This document shows positions 1 to 64,000 of a stretch of DNA of 64,000 bases, piece by piece. Made by a program: the position numbers and the translations under genes. The notes below the pieces were generated by a model. That model made no database searches. It saw only the letters and a list, made by a program, of their open reading frames with translations, and was not told the origin of the DNA. Each line of letters begins with the position of its first letter. Within the stretch, counting starts at the first letter, position 1. Source of the stretch: Cyrtodaria siliqua (Eukaryota; Mollusca; Bivalvia; Adapedonta; Hiatellidae); the NCBI GenBank assembly GCA_037043455.1, contig JAWPHD010011437.1:19956-83955 (forward strand), written 5' to 3'.

Positions 1-2637
1 ATAGTCAAACAAATACTGTAAATTAAAAATGGACTTTACGGGTGGTCGAAAGGATGGAGGGACTGACAGGTGGACGAACAAGGGTAACACTAAATGCCCG
101 CTCCACTTTCGTGGCTGTCCAGCAGCTGTGCTTCTATTTCTTGTTCACTGAACAAATAGTCCGTTCGAACAGCGTCCTAACTTCTGTTTAGGCGGGCGCA
201 GATGCGATCTAATTTTTTTTTAAATATCCAAAATTAATCGACTTAACTAAGAAATTAAAATATAATAAAGTTAATTAAATGTAAATTAAAAAGAACAGAA
301 ACTTTATTTTAAATACATATTCACATAATTTATTTTTGGAATGCGGTTATGATATCGTAATTTTGTCAAAGAGATGCAATTTGAGATCAGATGAAGGTGT
401 CTTCTGAAACACTTTTAGACGAAGACGTCTTAATTAAGTCATCATAAACCATAAGGCCGATATACGTTTCCGTAGTAAGAGGTTAACACTAAAGATATGC
501 TTACTAGTAATAACATGTACCATAGTTAATGCGATACTATGCCAGCGATTCGAGCGAATCAGACATGATGCATAAAACACAAATACAATTTGGATTTTTC
601 ATATTAACTCCAGAAAAGAAGAAAAAATAATACAAATAAAGAAAAAAGAAGTTGAAAACAGTATTTACTACGTATTAAAAACATAAATGTATCAATGTTT
701 GTTTCCAGTGTTTGCGTCATGGTCGTTTACATTATATGTACGATGCGACGTTGACAGAGACGTCATTTTCGTAAGGGTGTTGTGTTCATTAAAACAAACA
801 TACTGAAACAAATATTCCGATGACCAGCAACTTTTATTTTATATTCCGATAGGAAATTCAATTCTCGACAACATATTAAAATTGTGCAGTTTTTTATCAA
901 GCCATTTAATAGATAAACGGCTTTAATGTCGTTTTTTCTTAAAATGTTCAAGCCCAAAAAAGGGTTAAAGAAATAGGAAATTCTAGAAATAATAGTTTAC
1001 AGCTTAATTTAAATGATATAATTTATATATCAGATGAAAGGTCTCATCATGACAAACAGTGTGATGTAAAACTAATTGCATGCTACTAAACTAACGTTTT
1101 GTGATGCTAAAAACGTTGATAATTGAGTACAAACGCGACTTTTATGAAAAAAAGTCAAACATAGCCATATTTGAGACGTTATTATTAAACTATTGTTTAC
1201 ATGACGACAAAACTAAATTCAGATTCAAATCGCAAATATTTTCAAATTTACAAATATATATAGTTTATATGCGTACCCTTAAATTTTCCAATAGGTCAAT
1301 TCCCCCTTAAACACCTTATTGAAACGAAACATACATTATTATAATCCCGGTTTGCTGTTAACTATGAATCTTTTGAATGTATTCTCATCAAAATCAGTGA
1401 ATAATTGAGAGAGAAATAGAAGGAAAAGTTAAGGTGCCACGTGATATTGTAGTAACTTCAATTGTTAAGATATGAAGTTTCCTATCTGTTTATTAATATG
1501 CCTGTGGTTAAAGGCAGGTATAATAATTAAATCTAAAACAACAAACAAAAAACGCGTGCCCCAATAAGATGTCAACAATTGTAATTTGATCGACAGCCAT
1601 ACTTCTTCACGAACGCCTCCAGTCCCTTTATATAACATTTAATAAAATTAATGGCTTATATCAATAGTTTTAATGCGATGGAGAAACAATAAACATACTT
1701 GCAAAATCATGAACAAAGCAATTTAATTAAATCACAAATAACTATATTTACTTTCTCTTTCCTACATATAGTCACACGCTAAAAATGTCAACTGTTTCAA
1801 ATCCTGTTTGCAGATTGAAAAGAACTGTGTCGAATCCACATTGCATTACCTGTTTACCTTTATTCTCCCATTCTTAAACCATGTAAACACACATTTTATT
1901 CAATGAAAAATGATTAAAACTGCCATAATCCCAATAACTAATTATTTAAACGCATTATGCCAGGTGGATCAACACTCACTTCGAAAACAAAATGGAAGTA
2001 CACGTTATTGTTACCCCTTAACAACAAGTAATAACATCCTGATTCAACATTTTCAGTGCTTTTACATTAACACTACCAGGAAACGGTAAACTTGACAGTT
2101 CAATACAGGTACACACCTAACGTAAATAAATATGATCAATAAAGGGTCAAGGTTTTGGGGCTACATTTGATTAAAAAACAAAAACAAAAAATCTATGTAA
2201 CGTGAAATGGTTCAAAGATAAAATGGAACATTAAGTTTCCTGTCATACAGCGCAATAATTATTAATGATAAATTACAAAAAGGCGTATTAGTCCAATGAG
2301 AAACCCCAAGTTATAAATAGACATCACGCGGTGGCAAATCGGCGATTTACCGCCAAGTTTAAAATAGCTATCTCTGGCGCATAACCATTGTAGGAGCTAC
2401 GTCATGCAAATAATACTTATTTTTACATACGACTTAGTATCAGTTTTCAATATATGTTTCTCTCCGAGACTATCAAGAAATGTTCATATGATGTTTAAGA
2501 GTTAAATGTGATAATAGTAGTACTGGGGCCGGTTTGGATCCACGACTGCGTATGCTCGGGCGCCATTTTGTTTTCTAAAAATAGAACGTGTTAGGTCACG
2601 TATGTGTGCCATTTGCATATGAATGTATTGTGGGTAG
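1..2637. other. gene-free AT-rich stretch
   Basis: I see no coding region, RNA gene or clear repeat here. The open frames at 763-957 and 1101-1310 are short, have no recognisable motif and look like chance in AT-rich DNA. A TATAAATAG box lies near 2312-2320. The same box recurs twice just before the integrase of the next element, so the left end of that element could reach back to about 2.3 kb. Confidence 0.5.
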
Positions 2638-3092
2638 AAGGGATTAGTGACATGATGTTCTTACAAAGGATATTGACTTAATCCTTTAGCGTACCCACGC
2701 AATAGGATGAGTGTCACAGGTTAATCCTTTTATTCAATCGACACTATTGAGAGACAGGATGTCTGAGTTCCTTTTGTATAAAAACCGCAAAGGGTATTAG
2801 GGACAGGATGTTTGAATAACAGGTATTGACATTTAGACTTAATCTGCGGACATTATAGAGACAGGATGTCTGAGTTCCTTTTGTATACAAAATGCAACGG
2901 GGATTACTGCCATGATGTTCGTACAAAAGGTATTGACATTTAGACTTAATCTGTGAACATTATAGAGACAGGATGTCTGAGTTCCTTTTGTATAAAAAAC
3001 GCAGAGGGGATTACTGCCAGGATGTTCGAACAACAGGTATTGACATTTAGACTTAATCTGTGGACATTATAGAGACAGGATGTCTGATTTGA
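2638..3092. repeat. tandem repeat, about 107-bp unit, roughly four copies
   Basis: The landmark CATTATAGAGACAGGATG recurs at 2851, 2958 and 3065, a period of 107 bp, with an older copy starting near 2742 and a partial unit from about 2638. Each unit also carries GGTATTGACATTTAGACTT. The array lies just before the integrase, where a Polinton terminal region is expected, so it may be a subterminal array. I find no matching array at the right side (about 11 kb). Short open frames across it are by-products of the repeat. Confidence 0.85.
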
Positions 3093-3145
3093 AAACAAGA
3101 TTTGACATGTTAAGACCTTCTATCAATAGACTTGATGTTGATTTC

Positions 3146-3268
3146 TATAAATAGCACAAACGGACCCGACCGTAATAGAGAAAGTAAACAAAGGACCGGA
3201 AACCCTCTATTATACCAACACATTGAACACACTATTTGACATGTTTGAATACGTAGTTCTATAAATAG
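3146..3268 (+). promoter_or_regulatory. two TATAAATAG boxes upstream of the integrase
   Basis: TATAAATAG occurs at 3146-3154 and 3260-3268, each in a CTATAAATAG context, about 190 and 75 bp before the first ATG of the integrase frame. They match the metazoan TATA-box consensus. A third copy lies at about 2312. They are candidate core promoters for the plus-strand genes. Function is inferred from sequence and position only. Confidence 0.45.
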
Positions 3269-3335
3269 ACATGACGTTAGAGCCTATTAATAGCATAAAC
3301 TGACCTGACAATGATTTAAGAGCTTACTAAGGTCA

Positions 3336-4438
3336 TTGACTATTGTATTTATCTATAGTGAAAATGACAGACTGGAAACAATATTTAGCTTCCCAAGTCA
3401 GGCCTCAAGTTTTACAGCTCCCGAAAAGTTGTACAAAGTTGTAAAATCTAAGGGCAAATTTAAAATTGGTAGACATAGGATTAGAAAATGGTTGCAAGAT
3501 CAGGAAGCGTATTCTCTTACCAGAGGAGCCAGAAGAGCGTTTCATCGATCGGGGTGATCATCAATGGATTGGACAGTATGTGGGACATAGATTTGATGGA
3601 TATGGTGTCGTTGGCTTAACAAAGTGATAATTATAAATGTGTTCTCGTGGCCATAAATGTTTTCTCCAGATATGCTTGGTGTCAGCCTCTCAAGAATAAA
3701 ACGAGCGTGGAAGTGGTTAAAACATTAAACGTTATTTTGGAGGGTCAAGATGATATGTTTTGACAAGGGAAGAGAATTTCAGAATAAGGAGGTGAACAAG
3801 TACTTTAATAGTCTAGATATTCATCATTTTGTTACCCAAAACGAAACCTAGGCTAATTACGCAGAACGGGTTATTAAAACGATAAAACAAAAGCTGTTTC
3901 GTTATTTGTTAAAACAACGGATACAGCGCTACATAGACGTGTTGCAAGATATTGTCAATTATTTACAATAACACAGTTCATCGGAGTTTGGGTGATAAAC
4001 CGGTATTCATTAGTAAAACGAACGAAGGAGAGAGCAGATTACAACAATATCTACTCAGACACAAACCTGTGAAAATACAAAGAAGATACAAATATAAAAT
4101 TATTAAACAGTTAGAATTTCACACGTGAGAAGCTTATTTGACACAGAATACTCACAAAAATGGACCGGGGAGTTGTTTAAGATTCGAACACGTTTCAAAC
4201 GAGAAGGTCTACCCATTTACACTTTACGAGACTGGTCAGGTGAAGAAAATATAGATGGTACATTTTATGAATCCGAATTACAAGACGTGAACGTGGATGA
4301 TACTACGGAATATCACATAAAAAAGTGTTGAAGAAATGTGTACGCAACAAACAAAGGAAAGTACTCGTACGTTGGTTACATTGGCCAAAGAAGTACGATT
4401 CTTGGATTCCCGAAAAAGACGTCAAACACTACTCCTAG
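3336..4438 (+). pseudogene. Polinton-type DDE integrase, broken
   Basis: This is a retroviral-like (c-type) integrase that inserts the element into host DNA. The N-terminal region has the Polinton signature GKFKIGRHRIRKWLQDQ. Catalytic landmarks are visible in different frames: an Asp in WDIDLMDM (about 3587), an Asp in DKGREF (about 3762) and a Glu in NYAERVIKTIK (about 3864), the last two about 34 codons apart. The open frame at 4125-4331 is the barrel-like C-terminal part (GTFYESELQDVNVD). It is followed in another frame by a chromodomain-like tail with KVLVRWLHWPKKYDSWIP, ending in TAG at 4436-4438. In-frame stops near 3556 and 3628, further breaks near 3760, 3850 and 3970, and a frameshift near 4325 disrupt it. 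An AATAAA at 4519-4524 could be its polyadenylation signal. The family is certain; the start is uncertain. Confidence 0.9.
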
Positions 4439-4619: not shown

Positions 4620-5531
4620 ATGTTTATTACTAATGTGGTGTGTAGGGCCAATTTGGGCTGTACTATCGACTTGAGACAATTATGTTATCGTATTACGAAC
4701 GCTAAGTACAACATTTGGCATCATAAGAGCATAGGAGGAAACTGTTTTGTGTTCTCAAATGGCAAAATCAATTGTAATGGAAAGGCAAATAATTTTCCGG
4801 AGGGTATCAGAAGATTGAGACGATATGCCCGATGTTTACAAAAACTGGGGTTTCCGGTCTTATTTAAAGATGTCGAGTACCTGACGGCCTCAGCTTGCCA
4901 TACATTAAGTTGTAATTTAGACCTAGAGCTAAAGGAAAGAAAAGGCCTGTATGAACCTGAAAAATGCGCGATTATTAAACTAGAGGGAGTTACTTTTAGC
5001 TGTTTTACAAGTGGTAAAATCGTGATCACGGGTATCAAAGCGCCATGTGAGATAGTCATCTGTCCTGCACTCATTGAACTGGAACTGAGAAAGACTATGA
5101 AAATGACATCCGAGGGAATGTTGCAGTTTGACACAGATACAGATACAACATCAGCTTTAAGGACACACATCAAGGCTATTAAATGGATCGGATCGATAGT
5201 TATAGTTATCGTGATGTGTATGTCTCCGATTTTAATATTGACTAGCATTATACTCTCAAAACCATCTCCACCGTTTTACTATGAGACTGCTTGTCTCTAC
5301 GTAAAAAGATACGATCTGAGAGAGTATGTATATGTGACAGCGTGTAACAGAGGCGGAGACATTGTGATCGATCTCAGACAGTTTAATAATGATACGGCTA
5401 CCATTAAAGGCATCCCGCTCAGCCTTAACCAATGGTTATCCTTAAAACAGATGACGTCATTTATCGACACAGCTATACAGGAAATGGGAACATACTGGAA
5501 CACTGTAAATACATCTATAATTTACAATTGA
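4620..5531 (+). CDS. TBP-like domain + membrane segment + PC4-like domain protein
   Basis: This is an intact 303-residue frame. Residues 1-83 and 85-155 look like the two direct repeats of a TATA-binding protein. Repeat 1 has NLGCTIDL, FSNGK and RRYARCLQKLGFP; repeat 2 has YEPE, FTSGKIVITG and a closing amphipathic stretch. Of the DNA-kinking Phe pairs in TBP, one per repeat is kept (F45, F129). The partner positions look deleted or changed (Cys116 in repeat 2). Residues 188-213 are strongly hydrophobic (IGSIVIVIVMC...) and read as a membrane helix. Residues about 224-289 resemble the PC4/SUB1 single-strand-binding coactivator fold (IVIDLRQF, then GIPLSLNQWLSLK, then FIDTAIQEM). The inferred role is DNA binding to direct host RNA polymerase II, or tethering element DNA to a membrane. 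It lies between integrase and capsid genes, same strand. The linker could be an old frameshift or a fusion of two genes. I know of no described protein with this layout. Confidence 0.72.
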   Translation: MFITNVVCRANLGCTIDLRQLCYRITNAKYNIWHHKSIGGNCFVFSNGKINCNGKANNFPEGIRRLRRYARCLQKLGFPVLFKDVEYLTASACHTLSCNLDLELKERKGLYEPEKCAIIKLEGVTFSCFTSGKIVITGIKAPCEIVICPALIELELRKTMKMTSEGMLQFDTDTDTTSALRTHIKAIKWIGSIVIVIVMCMSPILILTSIILSKPSPPFYYETACLYVKRYDLREYVYVTACNRGGDIVIDLRQFNNDTATIKGIPLSLNQWLSLKQMTSFIDTAIQEMGTYWNTVNTSIIYN

Positions 5532-7632: not shown

Positions 7633-8052
7633 ATAATGTACAACTCTCAGATCTCCTTTAAGGATACCCCGTCACGATATGTTCGGACGACCAAATCAGA
7701 ATACAAGAAGGGCGATTCGTTATTTCAAATACAGACACCAGTGATGGGCCGGGGAAGCATTGGGTGACAGTTTATTTTCCCACCAAAGGACCGGACGAAT
7801 ACTTCGATTCTCTCGGCAAAAAGCCAAGTTTCTACAATGTAGGCTTCGAAACACTATTGCAAAACCGCTATTTTATAAACTGTGACCAGTAACAACAATC
7901 CACGTCGGACATTTGCGGACTTTATTGCGTTTATTATGTCATGAATCGACACCATAGCAAGACAATCAGGAACATTGTGAAACCCTTTAGCGTGAATAAT
8001 CATTAGCTGAATGATCAAAATATCATGACATTTGTAAAGAAAAACAAATAAA
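7629..8052 (+). pseudogene. adenain-like cysteine protease, broken
   Basis: Read from an ATG that overlaps the capsid stop (ATGA at 7629-7632). The family matures virion proteins and is related to adenoviral proteases and Ulp1. Catalytic landmarks are visible: His in KHWVTVYF (codon 7758-7760), Asp in EYFDSLGKKP (7806-7808), Gln in CDQ (about 7887) and Cys in SDICGLYCVYYVMN (7914-7916). About 140 codons end with TAA at 8050-8052. It carries TAA stops near 7660 and 7890, a TAG near 8006 and a frameshift near 7700, so it is inactive as it stands. It is the last gene of the plus-strand capsid cluster; a cleavable-looking IVGSG site lies in the protein encoded at 6038. Confidence 0.85.
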
Positions 8053-8730: not shown

Positions 8731-9383
8731 TTACGTCAGTCGGTAGACGATAGGGGCCTGCCCAGGAAATATACGTGTCCTCAATCTATATCGATCATCC
8801 TCCTGAGGACTCATATCCACGATAAAGTAACTGTGATTCGAACGCAAGGCATCTTCATAGTCTTTCATGAACCCTTTGACTTTACCAGGGGATAACTGAC
8901 GTCCGAGAATACTGACCTGAGAGACATCTCTCAAGTTTTCATGTGCACCAGGTACCACGTATTTAATGCGATGGTTCTGGCGTGTTTACCTCTTGGATAT
9001 AGGTTTTGCGTGATGAAAATAACGCTGAGTCTTCTATGATGACATCCTTGAGTGAACAATAATTCCATGTTTTGGTTTTGAACCACCGCGTGAACTAAAT
9101 CATCGATTACAATTAAGCGATGTCGTCTGTCACGAGTAAATTCGTTTAACTGTTCTTCTGAAGGTAAACCTTGTTGGCAACTAAAGTTAGGTATTGTTTG
9201 TTTCATTTCGTCGAATAATTGTTGATATATACCGTAACAGTAGAAAACGTGTAAAGGCGGCTCACTGGTATACATGTTATTTAAGATTTGCAAGAAACGG
9301 TACACCCAGCGTGTCTTGCCACTACCGGTTTGACCACTAACGCATATACTGGAACACGGCTCGAATGGAAGAAGTGACTTCAT
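8731..9383 (-). pseudogene. FtsK/HerA-type genome packaging ATPase, frameshifted
   Basis: This is the P-loop ATPase that pumps DNA into Polinton-type capsids. Walker A is ICVSGQTGSGKT (residues about 13-24 from the ATG at 9383). Walker B is RLIVIDDLVH. A sensor-like segment reads LSVIFITQNLYPRG, followed by ARTIALNTWYLV. A frameshift at about 8940-8955 splits the protein. The second part (ILGRQLSPGKVKGF, FIVDMSPQEDD) continues in another frame to a stop at 8731. The full length of about 215 residues is normal for the family, so only one lesion is needed to explain the break. It lies between PolB upstream and two small genes downstream on the same strand, the usual Polinton order. Confidence 0.9.
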
Positions 9384-9478: not shown

Positions 9479-11143
9479 TTACATAGTTCGACAGTCTAGA
9501 CAAGTCATCTTCTTTAATGGAGTATAACCTTCTTGACATTCCAGGACTTCATCCTGGCTACATTCAAAATCGAAAAATACAAATTTGGGTCTGAACATTT
9601 CTTCGGCGGGTGTGGCTCGAAGGTAGCATAGATGATCGTCTAAGACAAACTGTTGACACAAACTGCAATGGTACTCTCCGCATCGATGGTCCTCTTTTTT
9701 CTCTTCATCGTATTGATCACCTTGTAACAAGTAGGAACTTTCCACCATTTTTGACATTCAGATATACCGTTGACTGCTGAATTTGATGACGGCGGTAACA
9801 GTCTGCGGACCTACAATTCATATTACATTTGTTACAATCGATGGTAGTCTCGGTTTTTGGACAGTGGTCGCATTTACAGATGATACAGGTCGTTTCGCAC
9901 TGGTGTCTTTCTTTGTTGTTGTAATGTTTGAGACATGTGGCGCAGAAGTATCTTGAGCTGAAGAAGCCAGTTATACTGGTAATGGCGTGGAAATGGTTAT
10001 CGTCCACAAGGTAGATGTAAACGCTTGGCCGTTGATCCGTAGTTGAACCGGTAATAAACTTGTTACCCAACCTGGCACTGACCACCATCACGCGGATGTT
10101 TAGGGCCTCTTTAAAAATGTCGTTTAGACTGGCGGGACGGTCCAATGGTACTCCAGCAAGTATGTTAATGGCTACGGCCAGTTGTTGTTGTTTATCTCTT
10201 GTCTTTGCACTTAGATCTCTGGAACTTGTCTATGTTCCAAAATCATCTGTAAATTACTTTTCCCATGTCGTTGTCTTGTAATCGTCTTCCATTCATCGGG
10301 GGTACACCGATGAAATTTAGCCCAGCTTACCCCGATAGCCCTGGCCATACAGAGTTGTCGTCATTTTCGATGGTGACAACTGATTTCTTTAAGTCGAGAT
10401 ATCTGTTCTTCCCGCGCAGCCTCGTGATTCGTCGCCTAGGACCACCACTTCCTTTTGGTAGGTCAATCGACCCCACAGTTATTTTCGAAACTGTCAGTGA
10501 CAGCGAGGTCTTGTTTACTGTTGAGGACTCTTTTGACGATCGCCATGACAGTGTCGGCATTTAACATGTCCTATGGCTGTAGAGGAACGACGATAGCATC
10601 TTGTAAGCCCTCGTGGTTTATAACAACTCTCCCTAAATCATTTCCCGCCAAATCTCCACGAGCTTGATCGAGTATCTCGTCAAACAGTTGATGTAAAACT
10701 TCGTGAATATCCCTCAACCGTTGACCTTGGTGTTTTTCGTCTATTTTAATTTGATATTTTTTTATCTACAGCCGCATTTTTAGCGTAAGTACGCTCCGAT
10801 TTCTTTCGAATGGTATATTGTAGACCGGCGGGTGTGTCACAAGGTGTATCCGTGATGTTTGACGGTCCTGGCTGAGTCTCATCTCCCCTCCCTCTCTTAA
10901 TGGCTGGTGAAGTTGTGGGGTTCCATTCACCGTCATTTAAACACATGTAACAGGTTTCTTCCATTTCGTCATCAAATAAAATCGCTTTAATATATCCATC
11001 AATTACCTCCTGTTCTCTTACATATTCCTGAGTCATGTCGAAAAATCCTCTTCTATAGATGGAGGTGTTAATGGTCCTCCTAAATTTTCATTCATAAAGG
11101 CGGCAGTCGTACTCTGGAGCACTGTGTCTATCGAATCTATGAC
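9479..11143 (-). pseudogene. protein-primed type B DNA polymerase, N-terminal half only
   Basis: This is the Polinton polymerase that replicates the element by protein priming. It is read from the minus strand: an open frame may begin as far up as 11143, with an ATG at 11036. Segments in several frames cover the long N-terminal region (ERTYAKNAAVDKK; LRDIHEVLHQLFDEILDQAR; RYLDLKKSVVTIENDD). A cysteine-rich zinc-binding part follows (CATCLKHY, CIICKCDHC, CNKCNMNCRS), then HCSLCQQFV, and finally the first exonuclease motif KFVFFDFECSQDE at about 9560. The frame ends at 9479, where the rest of the exonuclease and the whole palm (motifs A, B, C) should follow. Instead the ATPase starts 95 bp later, so a large deletion removed the catalytic half. 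Stops and frameshifts occur near 10570, 10490, 10350-10150 and 9740-9760. Family certain, copy dead. Confidence 0.88.
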
Positions 11144-45449: not shown

Positions 45450-48400
45450 ATGTCTTTGTTAAAGTGGAAAGAATTAGCAGATAAAATGAAAATATTGAAT
45501 TATCTTGTTAAAGAATTTGAAAATAAAGTTATTCAAAAAAGACTAGAAAGAGGAGCTAGCAAGGATTTATACCAAAAAATGCTCGAGCCAGTAACTAGTG
45601 GAATAACAGAGCAAACAAGACAGCTAGCTGAACATTTGGTTACCCTTCCAGAAATACGCCAACAGTTGGCTATACTTCCGGAGGCACTACGCCCGCAATT
45701 AGCTGCCCCGCCTGAGCGTGGAGCTATAGCTCCACCGTAACCACCACCACCACCACCAACGCTACTACCACCACCGCAACCACTCGTTTTTAAACAAGAG
45801 GTCAATGACCTTGAAGCTCTACTGATAGATTTTGATAGCTAGGTGAAGTGAAGTTTCATAAAAACTGTCAAGTAGTTTCAGAGGAGTAGTCGCTACAAGT
45901 TGAAGTTTTTACTATATAACTCTAGGTAAACAAAGATGGCCACTGGCAGCCATGTTTAATGTCGAATCAAAATAATTTTTGACAAGGATCAACATCTTGT
46001 CATGCTGATCATTTCAGAAAAAGTCCCATATCAATATCACTTACAGTGTTCAAGAAGTAGTCGCTACAAACTTGTTTTTAAAAATCTATGTTTAGCTGTG
46101 GTGGCCATCTTGAATTTCCAGCCGACCTGAAATTGTGCTAGGATCAACTAGACATCAAGAGCAACATTCCTGTGAAGTTTCATGAAAATCCGTCTAGTGG
46201 TTTCAGAGGAGTAGTCACTACACATTTTTACTATACAAACTCTTATGTAAACAAAGATGGCCACTGGCAGCCATGTTTAACGTCGAATCAAAATAATGTT
46301 TGACTAGGATCAACATAATGTCATGCTGATCATTTTAGAAAAAGTCCCATATCAATATCACTTATAGTTTTCAAGAAGTAGTCGCTACAAACTTATTTTT
46401 TAAAAATCTATTTTTAGCTGTGGCGGCCATCTTAAATTTTTGGCCGACCTGAAATTTTGCTACGATCAATTGGACATCAAGAGCAACATTCCTGTAAAGT
46501 TTCATGAAAATCCGCCAAGTAGTTTCAGAGGAGTAGTCGCTACAAGTGTTTACTATATAACTCTATGTAAACAAAGATGGCCACTGGCAGCCATGTTTAA
46601 CGTCGAATCAAAACGATTTTTGACAAGGACCAACATCATGTCATGCTGATCATTTTAGAAAAAGTCCCATATCAATATCACTTACAGTTTTCAAGGAGTA
46701 GTCGCTACAACTTGTATTTTAAAAATCTATTTTTAGCTTTGGCGGCCATCTTGGATTTTGCATCAACATGAATTTTTGCTAGGATCAACTAGACTTCATG
46801 GGCAACATTTCTGTAAAGTTTCATGAATATCCATCCAGTAGTTTCAGAGGGGTAGTCGCTACAAGTTTTTACTATATAAATCTATGTAAACAAAGATGGC
46901 CGCTAGCGGCCATGTTTAAAGTCGCATCGAAATAAATTTCGACAAGGATCAACATCATGTCATGCTGATCATTTTAGAAAACGTCCCATATCAATATCAC
47001 TTACAGTTTTCAAGAAGTAGTCGCTACAAATTTATTTATTTTAAATCTATTTTTAGCCGTGGCGGCCATCTTGAATTTCCGGCCAGCCTGAAATTTTTCA
47101 AGGATCAACTAGACATCAAGAGCAACATTCCTGTGAAGTTTCATGGACATCCGTCAAGTAGTTTCAGAGGAGTAGTCGCTACAAGTTTTTACTATATAAC
47201 TCTATGTAAACAAAGATGGCCACTGGCAGCCATGTTTAACGTCGAATCAAAACGATTTTTGACAAGGACCAACATCATGTCATGCTGATCATTTTAGAAA
47301 AAGTCCCATATCAATATCACTTATAGTTTTCAAGGAGTAGTCGCTACAAACTTGTATTTTAAAAATCTATTTTTAGATTTGGCGGCCATCTTGGATTGTG
47401 CATCAACATGAATTTTTGCTAGGATCAACTAGACTTCATGGGCAACATTTCTGTAAAGTTTCATGAATATCCATCCAGTAGTTTCAGAGGAGTAGTCGCT
47501 ACAAGTTTTTACTATATAAATCTATGTAAACAAAGATGGCTGCTAGCGGCCATGTTTAAAGTCGCATCGAAATAAATTTCGACAAGGATCAACATCATGT
47601 CATGCTGATCATTTTAGAAAAAGTCCCATATCAATATCACTTATAGTTTTCAAGAAGTAGTCGCTACAAACTTGAATTTAAAAAATCTATTTTTAGCTTT
47701 GGCGGCCATCTTGGATTTCACATCAACATGAATTTTTGCTAGGATCAACTAGACTTCATGGGCAACATTTCTGTAAAGTTTTATGAATATCCATCCAGTA
47801 GTTTCAGAGGAGTAGTCGCTACAAATAAAAGTTAACGGACAGACGGACGGACAGACGGACAGACGGACGACGGACGCCGCACCACGGCATAAGCTCTGCT
47901 GATCTCTGATCAGTAGAGCTAAAAACCGGCTACCAAGCAAACCGCAGATTCTAAAGACCGGACACAGCCGACTGATTATATGGAGGAATAGAAGCGGACA
48001 AAAGAGTCTGGACCAAAATTAAGAAAAACTCCAGAAAAAGTGCCCAGATCAAAACCTACGGGAGAATTATATGAAAAAATCAAACAAAAACTTACTTCAG
48101 CTAATCCTGAGGAAGAAATACTAGAAGAAGAAGAATGAGAAGAAGAAGAACCTGCTGCGAGGCTTAAGGAACCAACGTATAATGTTGACTTGGATGCTGG
48201 CATGGATAAAAAAAGTACTTGATGAGCATGGTTTGCTAGTCCCATCTAAAATACCAGATATTATGAATGAGGATACTGATTATGAAAAGTATGTCAGAGA
48301 GAGAGGCTAAAAAACACGCAAAGAACTGTCTGACAAGTTAAAAGGTCTAAACATACGAGTAAACAACCTCAGCAAAGAAACACTTAATGAAAGGTTTCAA

Positions 48401-52930: not shown

Positions 52931-53914
52931 AAACAAGAGGTCAATGACCTTGAAGCTCTACTGATAGGTTTAGAAAGCTAGATCAGCATTCCGGTGAAGT
53001 TTCATGAAAATCGTCAAGTAGTTTCACAAGAGGAGTCTCTACAATTTTTTACTATATATCTCTTGTAAACAAAGATGACCGCTGGCAGCCATGTTTAACG
53101 TCAAATCAAAATGATTTTCAACAAGGACCAACATCATGTCAATTTTTTATTTTCAGGAAGTAGTCGCTAAAAATTAGTTTTTTTAATCTATTTTTAGCCG
53201 TGGCGGCCATCTTGAATTTCCGGCCGGCCTGGAATTTTGCTAGGATCAATTAGACATCAAGAGAAATATTCCTGTGAAGTGTCATGAACATCCGTCAAGT
53301 AGTTTCAGAGGAGTAGTCGCTACAAGTTTTTATTATATAACTCTATGTAAACAAAGATGGCCACTGGCGGCCATGTTTAATGTTAAATCAAAACAATTTT
53401 CAATAAGGATCAACATCATGTCATGCTGATCATTTTAGAAAAAGTCCCATATCAATATCACTTATAGTTTTCAAGAAGTAGTCCCTACTAACTTGTTATT
53501 TAAAAATCTATTATAGCCGTGGCGGCCATCTTGAATTTCTGACCGATCTGAAATTTTGCTAGGATCAATTAGACAGCACGAGCAACATTTCTGTGAAGTT
53601 TCATGAAAATCCGTCAAGTTGTTTCAGAGTAGTAGTCGCTAACAGTGTTTATTATATAACTCTATGTAAACAAACTTTTTTTTAAAAAATATATTTTTAG
53701 CTTTGGCGGCCATCTTGGATTTCACATCAACGTGCATTTTTGCTAGGATCCACTAGACATCATGGGCAACATTCCTGTGAAGTTTCATGAAATCCATCCA
53801 GTAGTTTCAGAGGAGTAGTCGCTACAAAAAAAAACGTTTACGGACGGACGGACGGACGACGGACACCGCACCACGGCATAAGATCTGATCATCTTTCATC
53901 AGTAGAGCTAAAAA
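52931..53914 (+). mobile_element. pearl-like element A2
   Basis: Same left end (AAACAAGAGGTCAATGACCT) and right end (ATCAGTAGAGCTAAAAA) as A1 at 45792, same orientation. About three 320-bp units with internal deletions (for example near 53120 and 53660) precede a GGAC microsatellite (53837-53870). A1 and A2 flank the coding part of element 2 but are independent insertions, since A1 lies inside one of its genes. Confidence 0.75.
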
Positions 53915-54460
53915 CACATAAGGTTACATTTTTTCATAAGGTTACACTCCACTAATTTTTATGTAAGACCACATATTTATACCCCCGCCAAACAAGGTTT
54001 ATTTGATTTTCCATTTTGGTATGATGTGAACATACTTATTGAAAACCATATATGGTTACATTCCACTAATTATATAATTATAAGACTCCACTAATTTTAC
54101 TGAAGACCACATATTTTAATTATTTGTAACGTTATTTAACAGATAATCAGGTAATTGTTGCATAATTTCTTTTCCTTTTTCTTATTTGCTATGCGAGACC
54201 AAATATTTTTTAATTATATGTGATTGAGACTCTGCTCAGCACAAACTTCAGAGTATTCCCACGCATCCATATTAAGGAAATGATACCTATTTTGACTGGA
54301 CACCAATACGGGAGTATTAATCACCTTCACATAATTTGCATTAAATTTGTTTTTTAGTTAATTTGTATGAAAATACAGCATCAGTACCTTTTTTGAGGAT
54401 ACACACATATTCAAACAGCTCACAGCTATCCAGCTGGCTTGCAGAATGTCGGTGGTTCTA
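53915..54460. other. no gene seen
   Basis: AT-rich spacer. TCCACTAATTTT-type words recur at about 53948 and 54087, hinting at a small degenerate duplication (CACATATTTATACC / CACATATTTTAATT). Confidence 0.4.
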
Positions 54461-59294: not shown

Positions 59295-60638
59295 AGAGGT
59301 CAATGACGTTGAAGCTCTACTGATAGGTTTTGATAGCTAGTTCAGCATTCCTGTGAAGTTTCATGAAAATCTGTCAAGTAGTTTCAGAGAATTAGTTGCT
59401 ACAAGTTTTTACTATATAATTCTATGTAAAAAAGATAGCAGTTGGCAAGCATGTTTAAAGGGGTTGATGCACCATTTTCAAACAATGTTTATTTTAAAGG
59501 GCTCTGAAAAACTTGAAAAAAGCTGAAAGAATTATCAAAATGCCATGACAAATAAAAGAGATATGACCTATTGAAAATTTGGAAAGAACATAAATGGAGG
59601 CGGCCATATTTGAACGATGACGTCATTGCGCCTTTTTACCTTTATGGAATATTGATAAACTATATTTTATAGCAAAGAAAATCACTTCAAATTAATTAAA
59701 AATAAATATACAGACGCAAAATGAATAAATGGTATGCTTATTTTTCATTTGCAATGATTTTCTTTGCTTTAAACGACATTTTGCCAATTTGCCATATACG
59801 GTAGAAAGGCGCGATGACGTCATCTTTCAAATATGGCTGCCTCCATTTATGTTTCTTTGCAAAGATTCAATAGGTCATATTTCCTTTATCTTTCATGGCA
59901 TTTTGATAATTCTTTCAGCTTTTTTCAAGTTTTCCAGAGCCCTTTAAAATAAACATTGTTTGAAAATGGTGCATCAACCCCTTTAATGTCGAATCAAAAT
60001 AATTTTGAACAAGGACCAACATCATGTCATGCTGATCATTTAAAAAAAAATCATATCAATATCACTTATAGTTTTCCAGAAGTAGTCGCTACAAATTGGT
60101 TTTTTAAAAATCTATTTTTAGCTGTGCCGGCATTCGTAAATTTCCAGGCAACCTGAAATTTTGCTAGGATCAACTAGACATCAATAGCAACATTCCTGTG
60201 AAGTTTCATGAAAATCCGTCTAGTAGTTTCAGAGGAGTAGCCACTACAAGTTTTAACTATATAACTATATGTAAAGATGGCCGCTGGCAGCCATGTTTGA
60301 TGTCGAATCAAAATGATTTTCGACAAAGACCAACATCATGTCATGCTGACCATTTTAGAAAAGGTCCCATATCAACATTACTTATAGTTTTCAAGAAGTA
60401 GTCGCTACAAACTTCTTTTTTAAAAATCTATTTTTAGCTTTGGCGGCCACCTTGAATTTCACATCAATGTGAACTTTTACTAGGATCAACTAGACATCAA
60501 GGGCAACATTTCTGTAAAGTTTCATGAAAATCCATCCAGTAGTTTCAGAGGAGTAGTCGCTACAAAAGTTTGCGGACAGACAGACGGACATTGCACCACG
60601 GCATAAGCTCTGCTGATCTTTGATCAGTATAGCTTAAA
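59295..60638 (+). mobile_element. pearl-like element A3 with a nested MITE
   Basis: Left end AGAGGTCAATGACGTTGAAG, right end GATCAGTATAGCTTAAAA, same family and orientation as A1 and A2. About two and a half 320-bp units remain, with a short GGACAGACAGACGGAC tract at about 60575-60590. The first unit is split at its TTAA by the MITE at 59459-59982; the array text continues on both sides (ATGTTTAA | TTAATGTCGAATC). More diverged than A1. Confidence 0.75.
59459..59982. mobile_element. 524-bp MITE with TTAA target duplication
   Basis: Terminal inverted repeats begin AGGGGTTGATGCACCATTTT and end AAAATGGTGCATCAACCCCT. Pairing extends, with mismatches, for about 200 bp on each side (AAGGGCTCTGAAAAACTTGA / TCAAGTTTTCCAGAGCCCTT, and further GGCGGCCATATTTGAACGAT / ATCTTTCAAATATGGCTGCC). 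TTAA is present on both flanks (59455-59458 and 59983-59986), whereas homologous pearl-like units have a single TTAA there. TTAA duplication is the hallmark of piggyBac-type transposition. No coding capacity, so non-autonomous. Confidence 0.85.
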
Positions 60639-62467
60639 ATGTGTTCCGCGACGGGACAAGAAGAGACATTTAACGGGCAGCGTGATTCCTATATAGTACC
60701 CCACTTCACTTTGTGAAAGTATGGGTAAACACAAGAAAATTGTTTTCTAATATATCTTGACAATAAAATAATGAATTTCACATAATCGTAAAACAAAATC
60801 AATTGTTGCTGTTGTTAAAATCAGCCACCGTAAAATGTTGAATTGAAATCTTGGTGCTTAGAACATTTTGAGCAGTATATAATGCCGAACAACTAATTCT
60901 TTAACTCTACAGATGGTAGTTCTGTAAAAAAATCGTTAATACTCTATGATAATCACCTAAATAACAAATAGATAGGAAACTGCAATCCAGTATCTCAAAT
61001 TCACATGGCACACTGGGGAGATTTCACGAAATTGTCCACCTTTAAACACAAATATCATACAGAGTTGCAACACATTTCATTCATGCCAAAATCTTTCATA
61101 AATTTATTTTTCTATTGCCGATTATGATATTGTTATTACTTAAAGAAACTAACCTGCCAAATAACGGCAAAATTACACTACAAAACCATTGATCAAACCT
61201 CCAACCAGGTGTTCAGGTCATATAATAAAGTATATGTCTTGATTAAAAGTATAGGTATATTCATTTTCTTAAAATACCCGTGAATGAATATGCGAAAAAT
61301 GAATTATGAGTTGGTAACTCGACGCTCCAGTTTCGGAGTTTGGCTGGTTAAAGCAGTTTATATTGTGTCTATAGATTTCGCATTCTCAAAATATATATGT
61401 TGAATATATCTTGTCGTCAGTAGGTATAGAAATGGTGTACATATGGTGAAAATTTGGCAGTTGTTGTCGAGATAGCTACACGGCAATCTTGAATTTTGTA
61501 TCTCAATTTATTAATCCAGTATCATTTCGCTATAAACCGTTAAAACCTACTTGCATATTATTAAATACAATTTTGAGTTTCATTATAATGTTTAAGCATA
61601 TTATTTGGTACAATAATGAATATCATTATGTCGTCCTGCCTTAATTCCATTAAGCGATGGGAAAGCTTATATTAGCAGAAATTTATAACAGATATTTCCA
61701 CAATAAAACACGTTTAAAAAATGTTTTACTGACAAATGGCAATAACCTTTTTAAAATTACCTATTAAATGTATTAATCTTAAAATATGTAAACGTTTTAG
61801 GCCGAAATTAAGGTTTTATTTCATACCCCAGCCAACCCCGTTTTCCCTTCTTGAAGAAGGGGTTGGATGGGGTATGAAAGTTAATACTCGGACCACGTAA
61901 TGTATCGATAGTCAATAAATGTAAATACATTGTTTTAAACTGTTCCAATAATTATTATTTATGATTGCAAAAATACACGTTACGTAGAAAAACTAACGTT
62001 TTAAGTTTCGAAGTTGCTGTGTGTCGATTTTAACACGAGTTCCAGATTCTCAAATATGTTATGCCACAATTAATTCCTACCAATTTGTGCAAGAAAATAG
62101 TTTTTTTTGGTGAAAAATAGATGTGAGCTCCATAACTATAATTGTATATGGGACACAGAATTTTGAACATAGGATTTCCAGCTCAATATTTTTCCTGTAT
62201 AATATAAGAAGCTTTCATAGGTATCAGGTGAAGAGTGGGAATCAAACACAAGGTATGCTTTTGTTTTAATCAGCTCAGCTAAGTTCATATTAAAACACTT
62301 ATGCAGAGGGTTGGAATTTCCCTATCTTTACCGGATATCCATGATTGATTCTTTTTCTTGCATACTAATTGCTGAGGTCATCGGCATCTTTGATGACGGC
62401 GTTTTGAATGTTTATTTACACAATGACGTCATGAAATTGCTGATGTCATCGACATCTTTGATGACAG
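60639..62467. other. no gene; one hairpin
   Basis: AT-rich. A hairpin at 61820-61878 (TTCATACCCCAGCCAACCCC / GGGGTTGGATGGGGTATGAA) is the only structure I see. Frame 62311-62523 has a small internal duplication (CTGATGTCATCGACATCTTT-like) and no recognised domain. Confidence 0.45.
61820..61878. repeat. foldback hairpin
   Basis: Arms TTTCATACCCCAGCCAACCC and GGGTTGGATGGGGTATGAAA with a TCTTGAAGAA-type loop and about one mismatch. Same size class as the other foldbacks in the window but different sequence. Confidence 0.7.
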
Positions 62468-62473
62468 TTTATT
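62468..62473 (-). terminator. AATAAA polyadenylation signal after PFAS
   Basis: AATAAA on the minus strand (TTTATT on plus), about 126 nt beyond the PFAS stop codon. A plausible polyadenylation signal for the last exon. Confidence 0.45.
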
Positions 62474-62598
62474 CTATTTATCTACACTCGTTGGTTAGAC
62501 AGGATTTTCTAGCACATTTGTAATTGATATGAATATTTTTTTACCCTGTATATCAAAGTATATATAGCATTTTTCTGAACTAATCGAAATCTTTTGTT

Positions 62599-62924
62599 TC
62601 AGTCACATGACTTGTTAATAGTTTGAATGCTCCAATCAAAAGCGTTCTGAAACATTTTCATCCATGGTGAAGCATCCAAGCTTGTCCGCATTTCACTCGG
62701 CATCCACGGACATTGCCATGGCAAGAAACACCTCTCAGGATGTGGCATTATGGCAAGGTGGCGGCCATCTTGGGAACAAAGGGCAGCAACTCCATCTTGA
62801 GTGCCATTGGGGTTGAAAGGGTAGACAGTGGTTGGCTCCCCTTGATCATTAACATAACGGACTGGAACTAGATTGTTGCTAGTCAGCTGGTTGTAGATTT
62901 CTGGAGATCTGAAGACCATTTTAC
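62599..62924 (-). CDS. PFAS: phosphoribosylformylglycinamidine synthase, last exon
   Basis: C-terminal end of FGAR amidotransferase, the cytosolic enzyme that turns FGAR plus glutamine and ATP into FGAM in de novo purine synthesis. This exon encodes the end of the glutaminase (class I GATase) domain. KMVFRSPEIYNQL is followed by NLVPVRYVNDQGEPTTVYPF, then PNGTQDGVAALCSQDGRHLA and IMPHPERCFLPWQ. That stretch holds the His and Glu of the Cys-His-Glu triad in HPER; the Cys is encoded upstream outside the window. The end SPWMKMFQNAFDWS is the usual family terminus. The open frame extends a few codons further up, but TTTTGCAG at 62932-62925 is a good splice acceptor, so I start the exon at 62924. 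Stop TGA is 62601-62599. Intact, and the only host gene part I can support. The remaining exons should lie beyond 64000. Confidence 0.93.
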
Positions 62925-62940
62925 CTGCAAAAGTAGACAT
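62925..62940 (-). promoter_or_regulatory. splice acceptor of PFAS last exon
   Basis: On the minus strand TCTACTTTTGCAG precedes GTAAAATGG. A pyrimidine-rich run followed by CAG fits a 3' splice site. The downstream GTAAAA should not be mistaken for a donor. Confidence 0.7.
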
Positions 62941-63094
62941 CATTGGTATATGGTAGTTTTGGTAAATAATAACTCAACCTTATACGGGGGCATAAAACAT
63001 GTTAATAACAAGAGCTGTCGGAGAACAGCGCAGCTCGACTATTCGATTTTTCAGAGATTAATAAATTTATAGCTAGTATATACCATCAGAAAAC

Positions 63095-63934
63095 AAGGCT
63101 ACAACAATGTGGGGTGGGGTTGGGGGCACAACATAACTATGTGTAAGAATTGACCAAAACTACACAGAAATATGTAAAAATAATAATAAAAAATCGAGTT
63201 TTGAGTGGGGTGTGGGGGTGGAGGTGGGGGAGAGGCGGGGTAGATGGTGGGGGTAGTGGGGGTGGTGAGGGCAACACATATGTGTAAGAAGCTATGTAAG
63301 AATTCACCAAAACAACACAAAAATATGTAAAAAAAATAATTTAAAAATCGAGTTTTGAGTAGGGATGGGGGAGAGGCAGGGGTTGGGGAGGGCAACATAT
63401 ATGTGTAAGAAGCTATGTAAGAATTGACCAAAACAACACAGAAATATGGTAATACAAAATAAAAAAATTCGATTTGGGGGAGTACAGAAATATGAAAAAT
63501 AAAAAAAATAAAAATTCAAGTGGGTTGGGGGTGTGGGGTGGGGGGTAGTGTGTGGGAGGGGTGGAGGGGCAACATATATGTGTAAGAAGCGATGTGTAAG
63601 ACATTACCAAAACAACACAGATATATGTAAAAAACAATAAACATTAACAACACAGAAATATGTAAAAAAAAAAGTTTCAAGTAAGTGTGTGTTTGGGAGG
63701 GTGGTGGGGGGAGTTGAGAGAAGCAGGGGTATGTGTGGGGTGGGGGCGGGGAACAACATATGTGTAAGAAGCTATGTGTAAGACATTACCAAAACAACAC
63801 AGATATATGTTAAAAACAATAAACATTAAATCAAAATATTCCAGTTTCGAGCGGTGGGGGGGTGGGGGGGCAACATAGGTATGTGTAAGAATTGACCAAA
63901 ACAACACAGAAATATGTAAAAAAATAAAATGTTT

Positions 63935-63936
<2 letters not shown>
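63095..63936. repeat. G-rich tandem repeats, about 130-190-bp units
   Basis: CATATATGTGTAAGAAGCTA, ATTGACCAAAACAACACAGA and AATATGTAAAAA recur in about six units (near 63130, 63270, 63395, 63570, 63755, 63875). They alternate with G-runs such as GGGGTGTGGGGGTGGAGGTG. The many G-tracts could form G-quadruplexes. They lie upstream of the PFAS last exon on the minus strand, so probably inside its last intron. Pro/Tyr-rich minus-strand frames across them are by-products. Confidence 0.8.
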
Positions 63937-63990
<54 letters not shown>

Positions 63991-64000
63991 GGGGGGGGGT
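63937..64000. repeat. (TG)n microsatellite and poly(G)
   Basis: A run of TG dinucleotides from about 63937 to 63982, then GAGGTGGGGGGGGGGG to the window end. Confidence 0.95.

Follow-up and report, generated by a model that had tools for sequence, protein, structure and literature searches.

A TBP gene and a PC4-like gene accidentally joined in a decayed Polinton of Cyrtodaria siliqua

The open frame at positions 4620-5531 (+) of the window, by which we mean the whole 64,000-nucleotide stretch of Cyrtodaria siliqua DNA that was analysed, came about when a chance deletion joined two adjacent genes of a decayed Polinton in frame. Judging from the other copies, it is nearly certain that the join in the window is an accident and that the family encodes its TBP and its PC4-like proteins as separate genes. 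The explanation that we find best overall, and moderately favour, combines this accidental join with TBP and PC4 genes of the family's own that would recruit the host Pol II.

An ORF check of the window confirms that 4620-5531 (+) is a single open frame of 303 codons, as the sequence-only reading had claimed. The two TBP-type repeats described there are borne out by Pfam TBP, which hits residues 1-155 in two stretches (E 4.6e-15, 55.7 bits, cut-off 22.9) and the entire 303-codon frame with E 4.2e-14; residues 1-155 also find human TBP in the PDB (E 2.5e-14). A hydrophobic segment had been placed at residues 188-213, and the 19-residue Kyte-Doolittle mean indeed peaks at 2.85 starting from residue 193 (residues 193-211, positions 5196-5252 +). 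The PC4/SUB1-like module, at residues 224-289 in the limits of that reading (5289-5486 +), stands only in part. Pfam PC4 gives E 0.0083 for the whole frame and a weak match of E 3.8e-4 for 5280-5528 alone, and the domain passes the cut-off in a relative, L033, but the window copy itself reaches 20.3 bits where 25 are required. The neighbouring genes that were said to be broken are broken in the window.

We give practically no weight to the possibility that the resemblance to TBP and PC4 is due to chance. Although the PC4 part of the window is by itself under the Pfam cut-off and the predicted structure of the second gene product is poor, relatives carry PC4 above the cut-off, and chance would also have to account for the Pfam value of the TBP half and its 102 protein-database relatives at E <= 0.1. 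For TBP the idea is refuted by these two results and by the 44 PDB chains, all TBPs, that are discussed below.

The two parts of the frame are the remnant of a TBP gene whose own stop codon is gone and which has lost several stretches (4620-5096 +), and the remnant of a gene for a membrane protein with a PC4-like domain, here called TM-PC4 (5097-5528 +), which in sister copies is a separate ORF with its own start, for example L003:1507-1959. They meet at a deletion junction (5087-5097) that is private to the window copy. The animal's own genome (2.88 Gb, 26,948 contigs) was searched and gave at least 140 matches. Among the matches listed, those to the TBP half never extend beyond residue 185, the window excepted, and the joined TBP/TM-PC4 frame is in no copy found besides the window. 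Thirty loci were fetched, and 13 of those with DNA on both sides were aligned across the junction (L004-L010, L015, L018, L025 and L028-L030, with L004 and L005 being a near-identical pair on one contig); C551 (L016/L023) also spans the junction but was left out of the alignment. In the aligned loci the alignment to the window breaks at or near 5087|5093. By eye, each of the 13 has a stop codon that closes TBP, and the second gene starts about 55-70 bases further on; the inter-gene stretch absent from the window amounts to 73-78 alignment columns.

The claimed fusion of TBP, membrane segment and PC4 therefore falls, as 13 of 13 aligned sister copies have two genes instead, and a single designed TBP-TM-PC4 protein was rejected on account of these separate genes. 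The sequence-only reading had itself named what would make the fusion an artefact, namely homologous Polintons with two genes and a boundary at the hydrophobic stretch. In substance this is what the sister copies have, with the boundary near residue 159, just before that stretch and not inside it.

In a divergent family of the same genome, TBP and TM-PC4 face opposite ways, with 2.7-2.9 kb between them in most cases and 5.6 kb in C20139. According to the merged table for this genome, a TM-PC4 match lies within 8 kb at 21 of 84 TBP places, and the pairs within 8 kb are 12 adjacent same-strand ones (the window included) and 10 opposite-strand ones at 9 places. The 102 protein-database relatives cover at most 53% of the frame, and in all of them TBP is the sole precomputed domain. 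When 18 relatives were aligned with the frame, each was found to stop just past the TBP core, where the window frame continues.

The window copy also differs from its sisters inside the two genes. In addition to the junction, five short stretches kept by at least 6 of 10 sister copies are missing, each with a length that is a multiple of three. Two of them carried stirrup phenylalanines (each F in 88 of 89 relatives), with the other two stirrup positions of the window still being F, and another carried a sequon ahead of the PC4-like part. Two of the four DNA-kinking phenylalanines are thus lost, and the copy is therefore decayed; by its sequence the frame is a TBP homologue, from which a working TBP should not be expected.

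The indels might nevertheless be read as a sign that the joined frame is functional and maintained by selection. Window-only indels leave the frame open in 5 of 7 cases inside it (6 of 6 if a -7/+1 pair is counted as one) vs 3 of 13 in the neighbouring genes, with a Fisher value of 0.062 on raw counts. At the rates seen in the neighbours, one would expect 3.85 indels that break the frame and 1.15 in-frame ones inside it, giving P(0) of 0.021 and P(6 or more) of 0.0012, but these odds are biased because the frame had been chosen for being open. The TBP half has in addition dN/dS values of 0.50 and 0.44 against two sister stretches. The TM-PC4 half, on the other hand, has 1.39 (dN 0.046, dS 0.033) against L003, a sister in which the second gene is open. 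Together with the two missing phenylalanines and the missing sequon, the confinement of the join to one of the copies found, and the occurrence of another one-off join of neighbours at L040 (see below), this makes a selected fusion very improbable.

We now turn to the TBP gene as it occurs in the other copies. From the sequences, the element family encodes a free-standing core TBP of about 170 residues. The 102 database relatives were split by score, the first 89 being stand-alone TBPs of 166-218 residues and the 13 lower-scoring ones ordinary TBPs. The window's TBP part is 45-60% identical or lower to the free-standing relatives in the protein database, and we infer that these relatives likewise reside in Polintons. 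One of them, P0005, matches Pfam TBP with E 5.2e-27, and its structure is predicted with a pLDDT of 96.0. Searched against the PDB, this model finds 44 chains at E <= 0.001, all TBPs, with a TM to query of 0.81-0.91, and the predicted fold is that of the TBP saddle. The comparison with TBP by profile and structure that had been proposed thus came out in favour of TBP, with the Pfam match for the window and with the modelled fold for P0005. In BFVD the same model matches 32 viral models at E <= 0.001 and 8-20% identity, and the named ones come from giant-virus groups, asco-, irido- and asfa-like viruses, and herpesviruses.

At the four stirrup positions 88, 89, 88 and 50 of the 89 relatives have F, the fourth position being His in 36 and Tyr in 3. 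The positions of the E-P-E-L/I motif, a stirrup that we take to be the TFIIB contact of TBP, are kept in 77, 87, 85 and 88 of them. Ordinary TBP has an Asn in repeat 2 where 88 of 89 relatives have Thr, and in 36 relatives His takes the place of the fourth stirrup Phe, so the DNA preference of the family's TBP may differ from that of ordinary TBP.

A measurement of dN/dS across copies had also been suggested. Constraint is seen between the TBP subfamilies of the genome, where dN/dS is 0.12-0.22 (13 pairs, finite dS 0.49-2.5, several near saturation); the TM-PC4 half of the window gives the value of 1.39 quoted above. One more between-subfamily pair and all pairs involving the window have saturated dS, and within TBP subfamilies the values are 0.25-0.52.

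A quick tree was calculated with 63 rows, namely 45 of the 89 relatives, the 13 ordinary TBPs, the window, three genome subfamilies and the contig L001. A branch with an SH-aLRT of 100 separates the 49 Polinton-type rows from the rest, the group labels being those of the score-based split; the support for the ordinary TBP rows is 28, and L001 has a long branch. The host's own TBP is found in pieces on C2010 (E 2.3e-25), and its first piece is 33-41% identical to four element-group proteins vs 64-82% to three ordinary TBPs.

Other collections gave little. With NCBIfam, P0001 and P0005 match prokaryotic TBP models, but far under the cut-offs of those models, and PHROGs has no match for any of four proteins. 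Scans of IMG/VR with P0001, the tandem PC4 protein described below, A5 and P0050 yielded no relative. With A2 one contig was obtained, L001, which has giant-virus-like genes and an ordinary TBP (29%), and with P0058 one weak match (L064, E 3e-4).

Two side observations concern these TBP genes. The Mercenaria mercenaria proteins P0008 and P0021 fall in the Polinton-type TBP group yet are annotated as host genes, one of them as TATA-box-binding protein-like 1, which exemplifies that host gene sets can contain element TBPs. The loci L004 and L005 (G000:C250:166711-167235 and 347141-347665) are TBP copies that are nearly identical and lie 180 kb from each other on a single contig, due to either a recent duplication or an assembly effect.

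The second gene, TM-PC4, has ORFs of 147-181 residues in six relatives. Five of these have a best 19-residue Kyte-Doolittle mean of 2.05-2.62, and in them the segment is preceded by positive charges and followed by an N-x-S/T sequon. The membrane check proposed for residues 188-213 thus gives a hydrophobic peak both in the window (2.85) and in these relatives. Pfam PC4 exceeds its 25-bit cut-off in L033 (E 4e-6, 26.7 bits) and stays below it in L032 (23.1 bits, E 5.2e-5) and L003 (18.3 bits, E 1.6e-3). With a profile made from eight TM-PC4 copies, one of them the window's, human PC4 is retrieved from the PDB (E 5.3e-5) and the tandem-PC4 family is matched with 88% probability. In the profile check of the C-terminal part, one of three relatives is thus over the cut-off and the window copy is below it, and the structure prediction for TM-PC4 gave a poor model. 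For the TM-PC4 half there is no protein-database relative at E <= 0.1 (6 candidates).

The positive charges before the hydrophobic segment and the sequon after it point to a PC4-like part on the lumenal or outer side of the membrane. For TM-PC4 a role in the virion or in a membrane seems likelier than one as a transcription factor. The earlier idea that the element tethers its DNA or its transcription to a membrane loses its basis, since the segment is in the second gene alone and the PC4-like part is suggested to be lumenal or outside.

A further PC4 gene encodes a tandem protein, with ORFs of 189-206 residues that have two PC4 stretches each. Pfam matches are above the cut-off in L033 (E 1e-15, 57.4 bits), L048 (9.2e-22, 76.7 bits) and L053 (1.1e-11, 44.5 bits). 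The protein has ten database relatives at 53-61% identity and 145 matches in the animal's own genome, and at no fewer than 46 of the 84 TBP places a match lies upstream of TBP, on the same strand and within 4 kb. At 3305-3306 the window has a site without some 1.4 kb that the C1426 copy possesses, tandem-PC4 remnant included, such that positions 660 and 2097 of L061 abut in the window. This remnant, at 233250-233642 of C1426, shows 33% identity (E 3.2e-10); the remnant ORF of L061 by itself has no Pfam match.

A second, independent join of neighbours is found at L040:3300-4163 (C14417), where the frame of a tandem-PC4 remnant continues into TBP. It also looks like a one-off, because L046 and L048, of the same subfamily, keep a stop after tandem PC4 and a separate TBP start. 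One subfamily has an inhibitor-of-apoptosis (BIR) gene between tandem PC4 and TBP (L053:973-1299 on C4216, Pfam BIR E 3.1e-23), and the BIR copy of L054 (C5088) is, by eye, likewise found between the two.

As read from its genes, the element is a Polinton. In the window, 2516-3161 is terminal repeat sequence of the element, which matches the C1426 copy directly at the left end and inverted at the right end; it is through this shared sequence that the inverted ends of the C1426 copy are seen. A broken integrase gene follows at 3315-4438 (+), whose DNA is 88.5% identical to L062, with an rve ORF there (E 1.6e-8); the window's integrase piece alone gives rve at E 0.0092, under the cut-off. A piece of a broken adenain-like protease gene at 7662-7892 (+) was assigned through its by-eye likeness to an ORF of L032 (Peptidase_C5 E 4.8e-4, under the cut-off). 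The ATPase-like ORF at 8931-9383 (-) is probably the packaging ATPase (AAA_22 E 1.8e-5 and Pox_A32 E 0.0014, both under the cut-off). At 9485-9925 (-) is part of a broken PolB region, 88% identical to L065:5744-6204, which adjoins a DNA_pol_B_2 ORF (E 2.9e-14; 1e-14 in L066). The relative L039 has an rve integrase (E 3.2e-13) with a chromodomain (E 6.3e-7). For the capsid, candidate ORFs of L032, L037 and the window have no Pfam match.

As to the role of these genes, the element TBP would adopt the usual saddle fold, its stirrup phenylalanines would kink TATA-like boxes in element promoters, and its conserved EPEL/I stirrup would recruit the host TFIIB and Pol II. Tandem PC4 would bind melted or single-stranded DNA and aid opening or re-initiation. 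From the sequences and from analogy, we put recruitment of the host Pol II by the element TBP at about even chances. A more far-reaching version, an animal Polinton clade with its own Pol II kit (TBP, tandem PC4 and matching promoters) that forms an element-specific pre-initiation complex as in beta/gamma-herpesviruses, is a tentative possibility. The notion of an element-encoded initiation factor, which had been put forward for the fusion, is hence the best reading for the free-standing TBP genes of the family but not for the window fusion itself. TATA-like hexamers occur within 150 bases upstream of 8 of 9 TBP or tandem-PC4 starts vs 2 of 12 other starts, in a comparison made without a shuffled control, in which several rows are near-copies and one start is some codons off. 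These upstream boxes are a hint, to be taken as a lead only.

Two other roles were considered for the free-standing genes. PC4 domains bind single-stranded DNA, and TBP and tandem PC4 could instead serve replication or DNA handling, with PC4 as the single-stranded-DNA-binding protein of a protein-primed replication and TBP bending the terminal repeats. The PolB and the inverted ends of the elements, and the position of tandem PC4 as a neighbour of TBP, are consistent with such a role, but most relatives keep the EPEL/I stirrup, the TFIIB contact referred to above, which would be needless for a pure replication factor, and we consider this role unlikely. Somewhat more doubtful still is a role of the element TBP as a decoy or modulator, in competition with the host TBP or through binding of host factors, so that host transcription is lowered. 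It would fit a core fold lacking the long N-terminal part of several ordinary TBPs, and the altered residues of repeat 2; real DNA kinking is favoured, however, by the stirrup phenylalanines, since 88 or 89 of the 89 relatives keep F at three of the four positions.

Relative to cellular TBP (PF00352; human core PDB 1cdw), the Polinton TBP of the P0005 type has the same two repeats, a saddle in the predicted model (TM 0.90 to query, 1.8 A), most stirrup phenylalanines and EPEL/I. It differs in being 28-31% identical to most solved TBPs, in having no long N-terminal part and in the Asn to Thr change of repeat 2, and it is intronless and resides in a Polinton, while the host TBP is a different gene, in pieces. 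The PC4/SUB1 domain (PF02229) has matches in TM-PC4 and, twice, in the tandem protein; the tandem form and the form behind a membrane segment set the element's proteins apart from PC4/SUB1 itself.

A TBP fold encoded by a DNA virus has precedents among large DNA viruses, including B263R of African swine fever virus (PMC5825884, PMC11410667), the latter paper giving three plus four families of large dsDNA viruses; the BFVD models, however, are 8-20% identical to the Polinton TBP, and the elements here are far smaller. TBP genes are also described for Cymbomonas elements of putative mirusvirus origin (PMC10675990). The job proposed here resembles that of the beta/gamma-herpesvirus TBP-like protein (EBV BcRF1, ORF24), which brings the host Pol II to virus promoters and works on the TATT promoters of late genes (PMC4893493). 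Unlike it, the present protein is a compact, near-canonical TBP with PC4 companions, and the promoter match is putative.

The rve integrase with chromodomain, PolB, adenain-like protease and inverted ends are shared with Polintons/Mavericks and adintoviruses, the chromodomain integrase being a stated adintovirus mark (PMC11071296). TBP, tandem PC4, TM-PC4 and, in one subfamily, the BIR gene set the present elements apart, with no such report found in the searched literature. The earlier statement that TBP and PC4 are not standard Polinton genes agrees with this, as the literature searched, which excluded the adintovirus description and the nematode Polinton survey, holds no report of either in Polintons. 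Within the passages covered by a term search, three adintovirus, Polinton and Maverick papers (PMC11071296, PMC11071308, PMC8097293) contain neither TATA nor PC4.

What appears to be new, on the sequences, is thus a Polinton family with its own TBP and PC4-like genes, virus-encoded TBP as such being already known. Polintons are considered to be close to the root of many eukaryotic DNA viruses. Viral TBPs are known from large DNA viruses, and here TBP occurs with PC4 companions in Polintons; if functional, the genes would explain how elements of this kind control their own expression inside an animal nucleus, and a virus-specific Pol II pre-initiation complex could be studied in them on a small scale.

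Some further features were seen in the elements and in the window. At L034:1970-4795 (C20139) a 942-residue ORF that by eye resembles a non-LTR reverse transcriptase is found between TM-PC4 and a capsid-like ORF. The stretch 62001-64000 of the window has a strong GC skew (0.306), unlike the remaining window. A repeat of about 320 bases, in arrays or pieces, occupies 45848-47824, 53150-53915 and 59982-60590 of the window, and the same repeat lies beside or within Polinton copies in L060 and L063.
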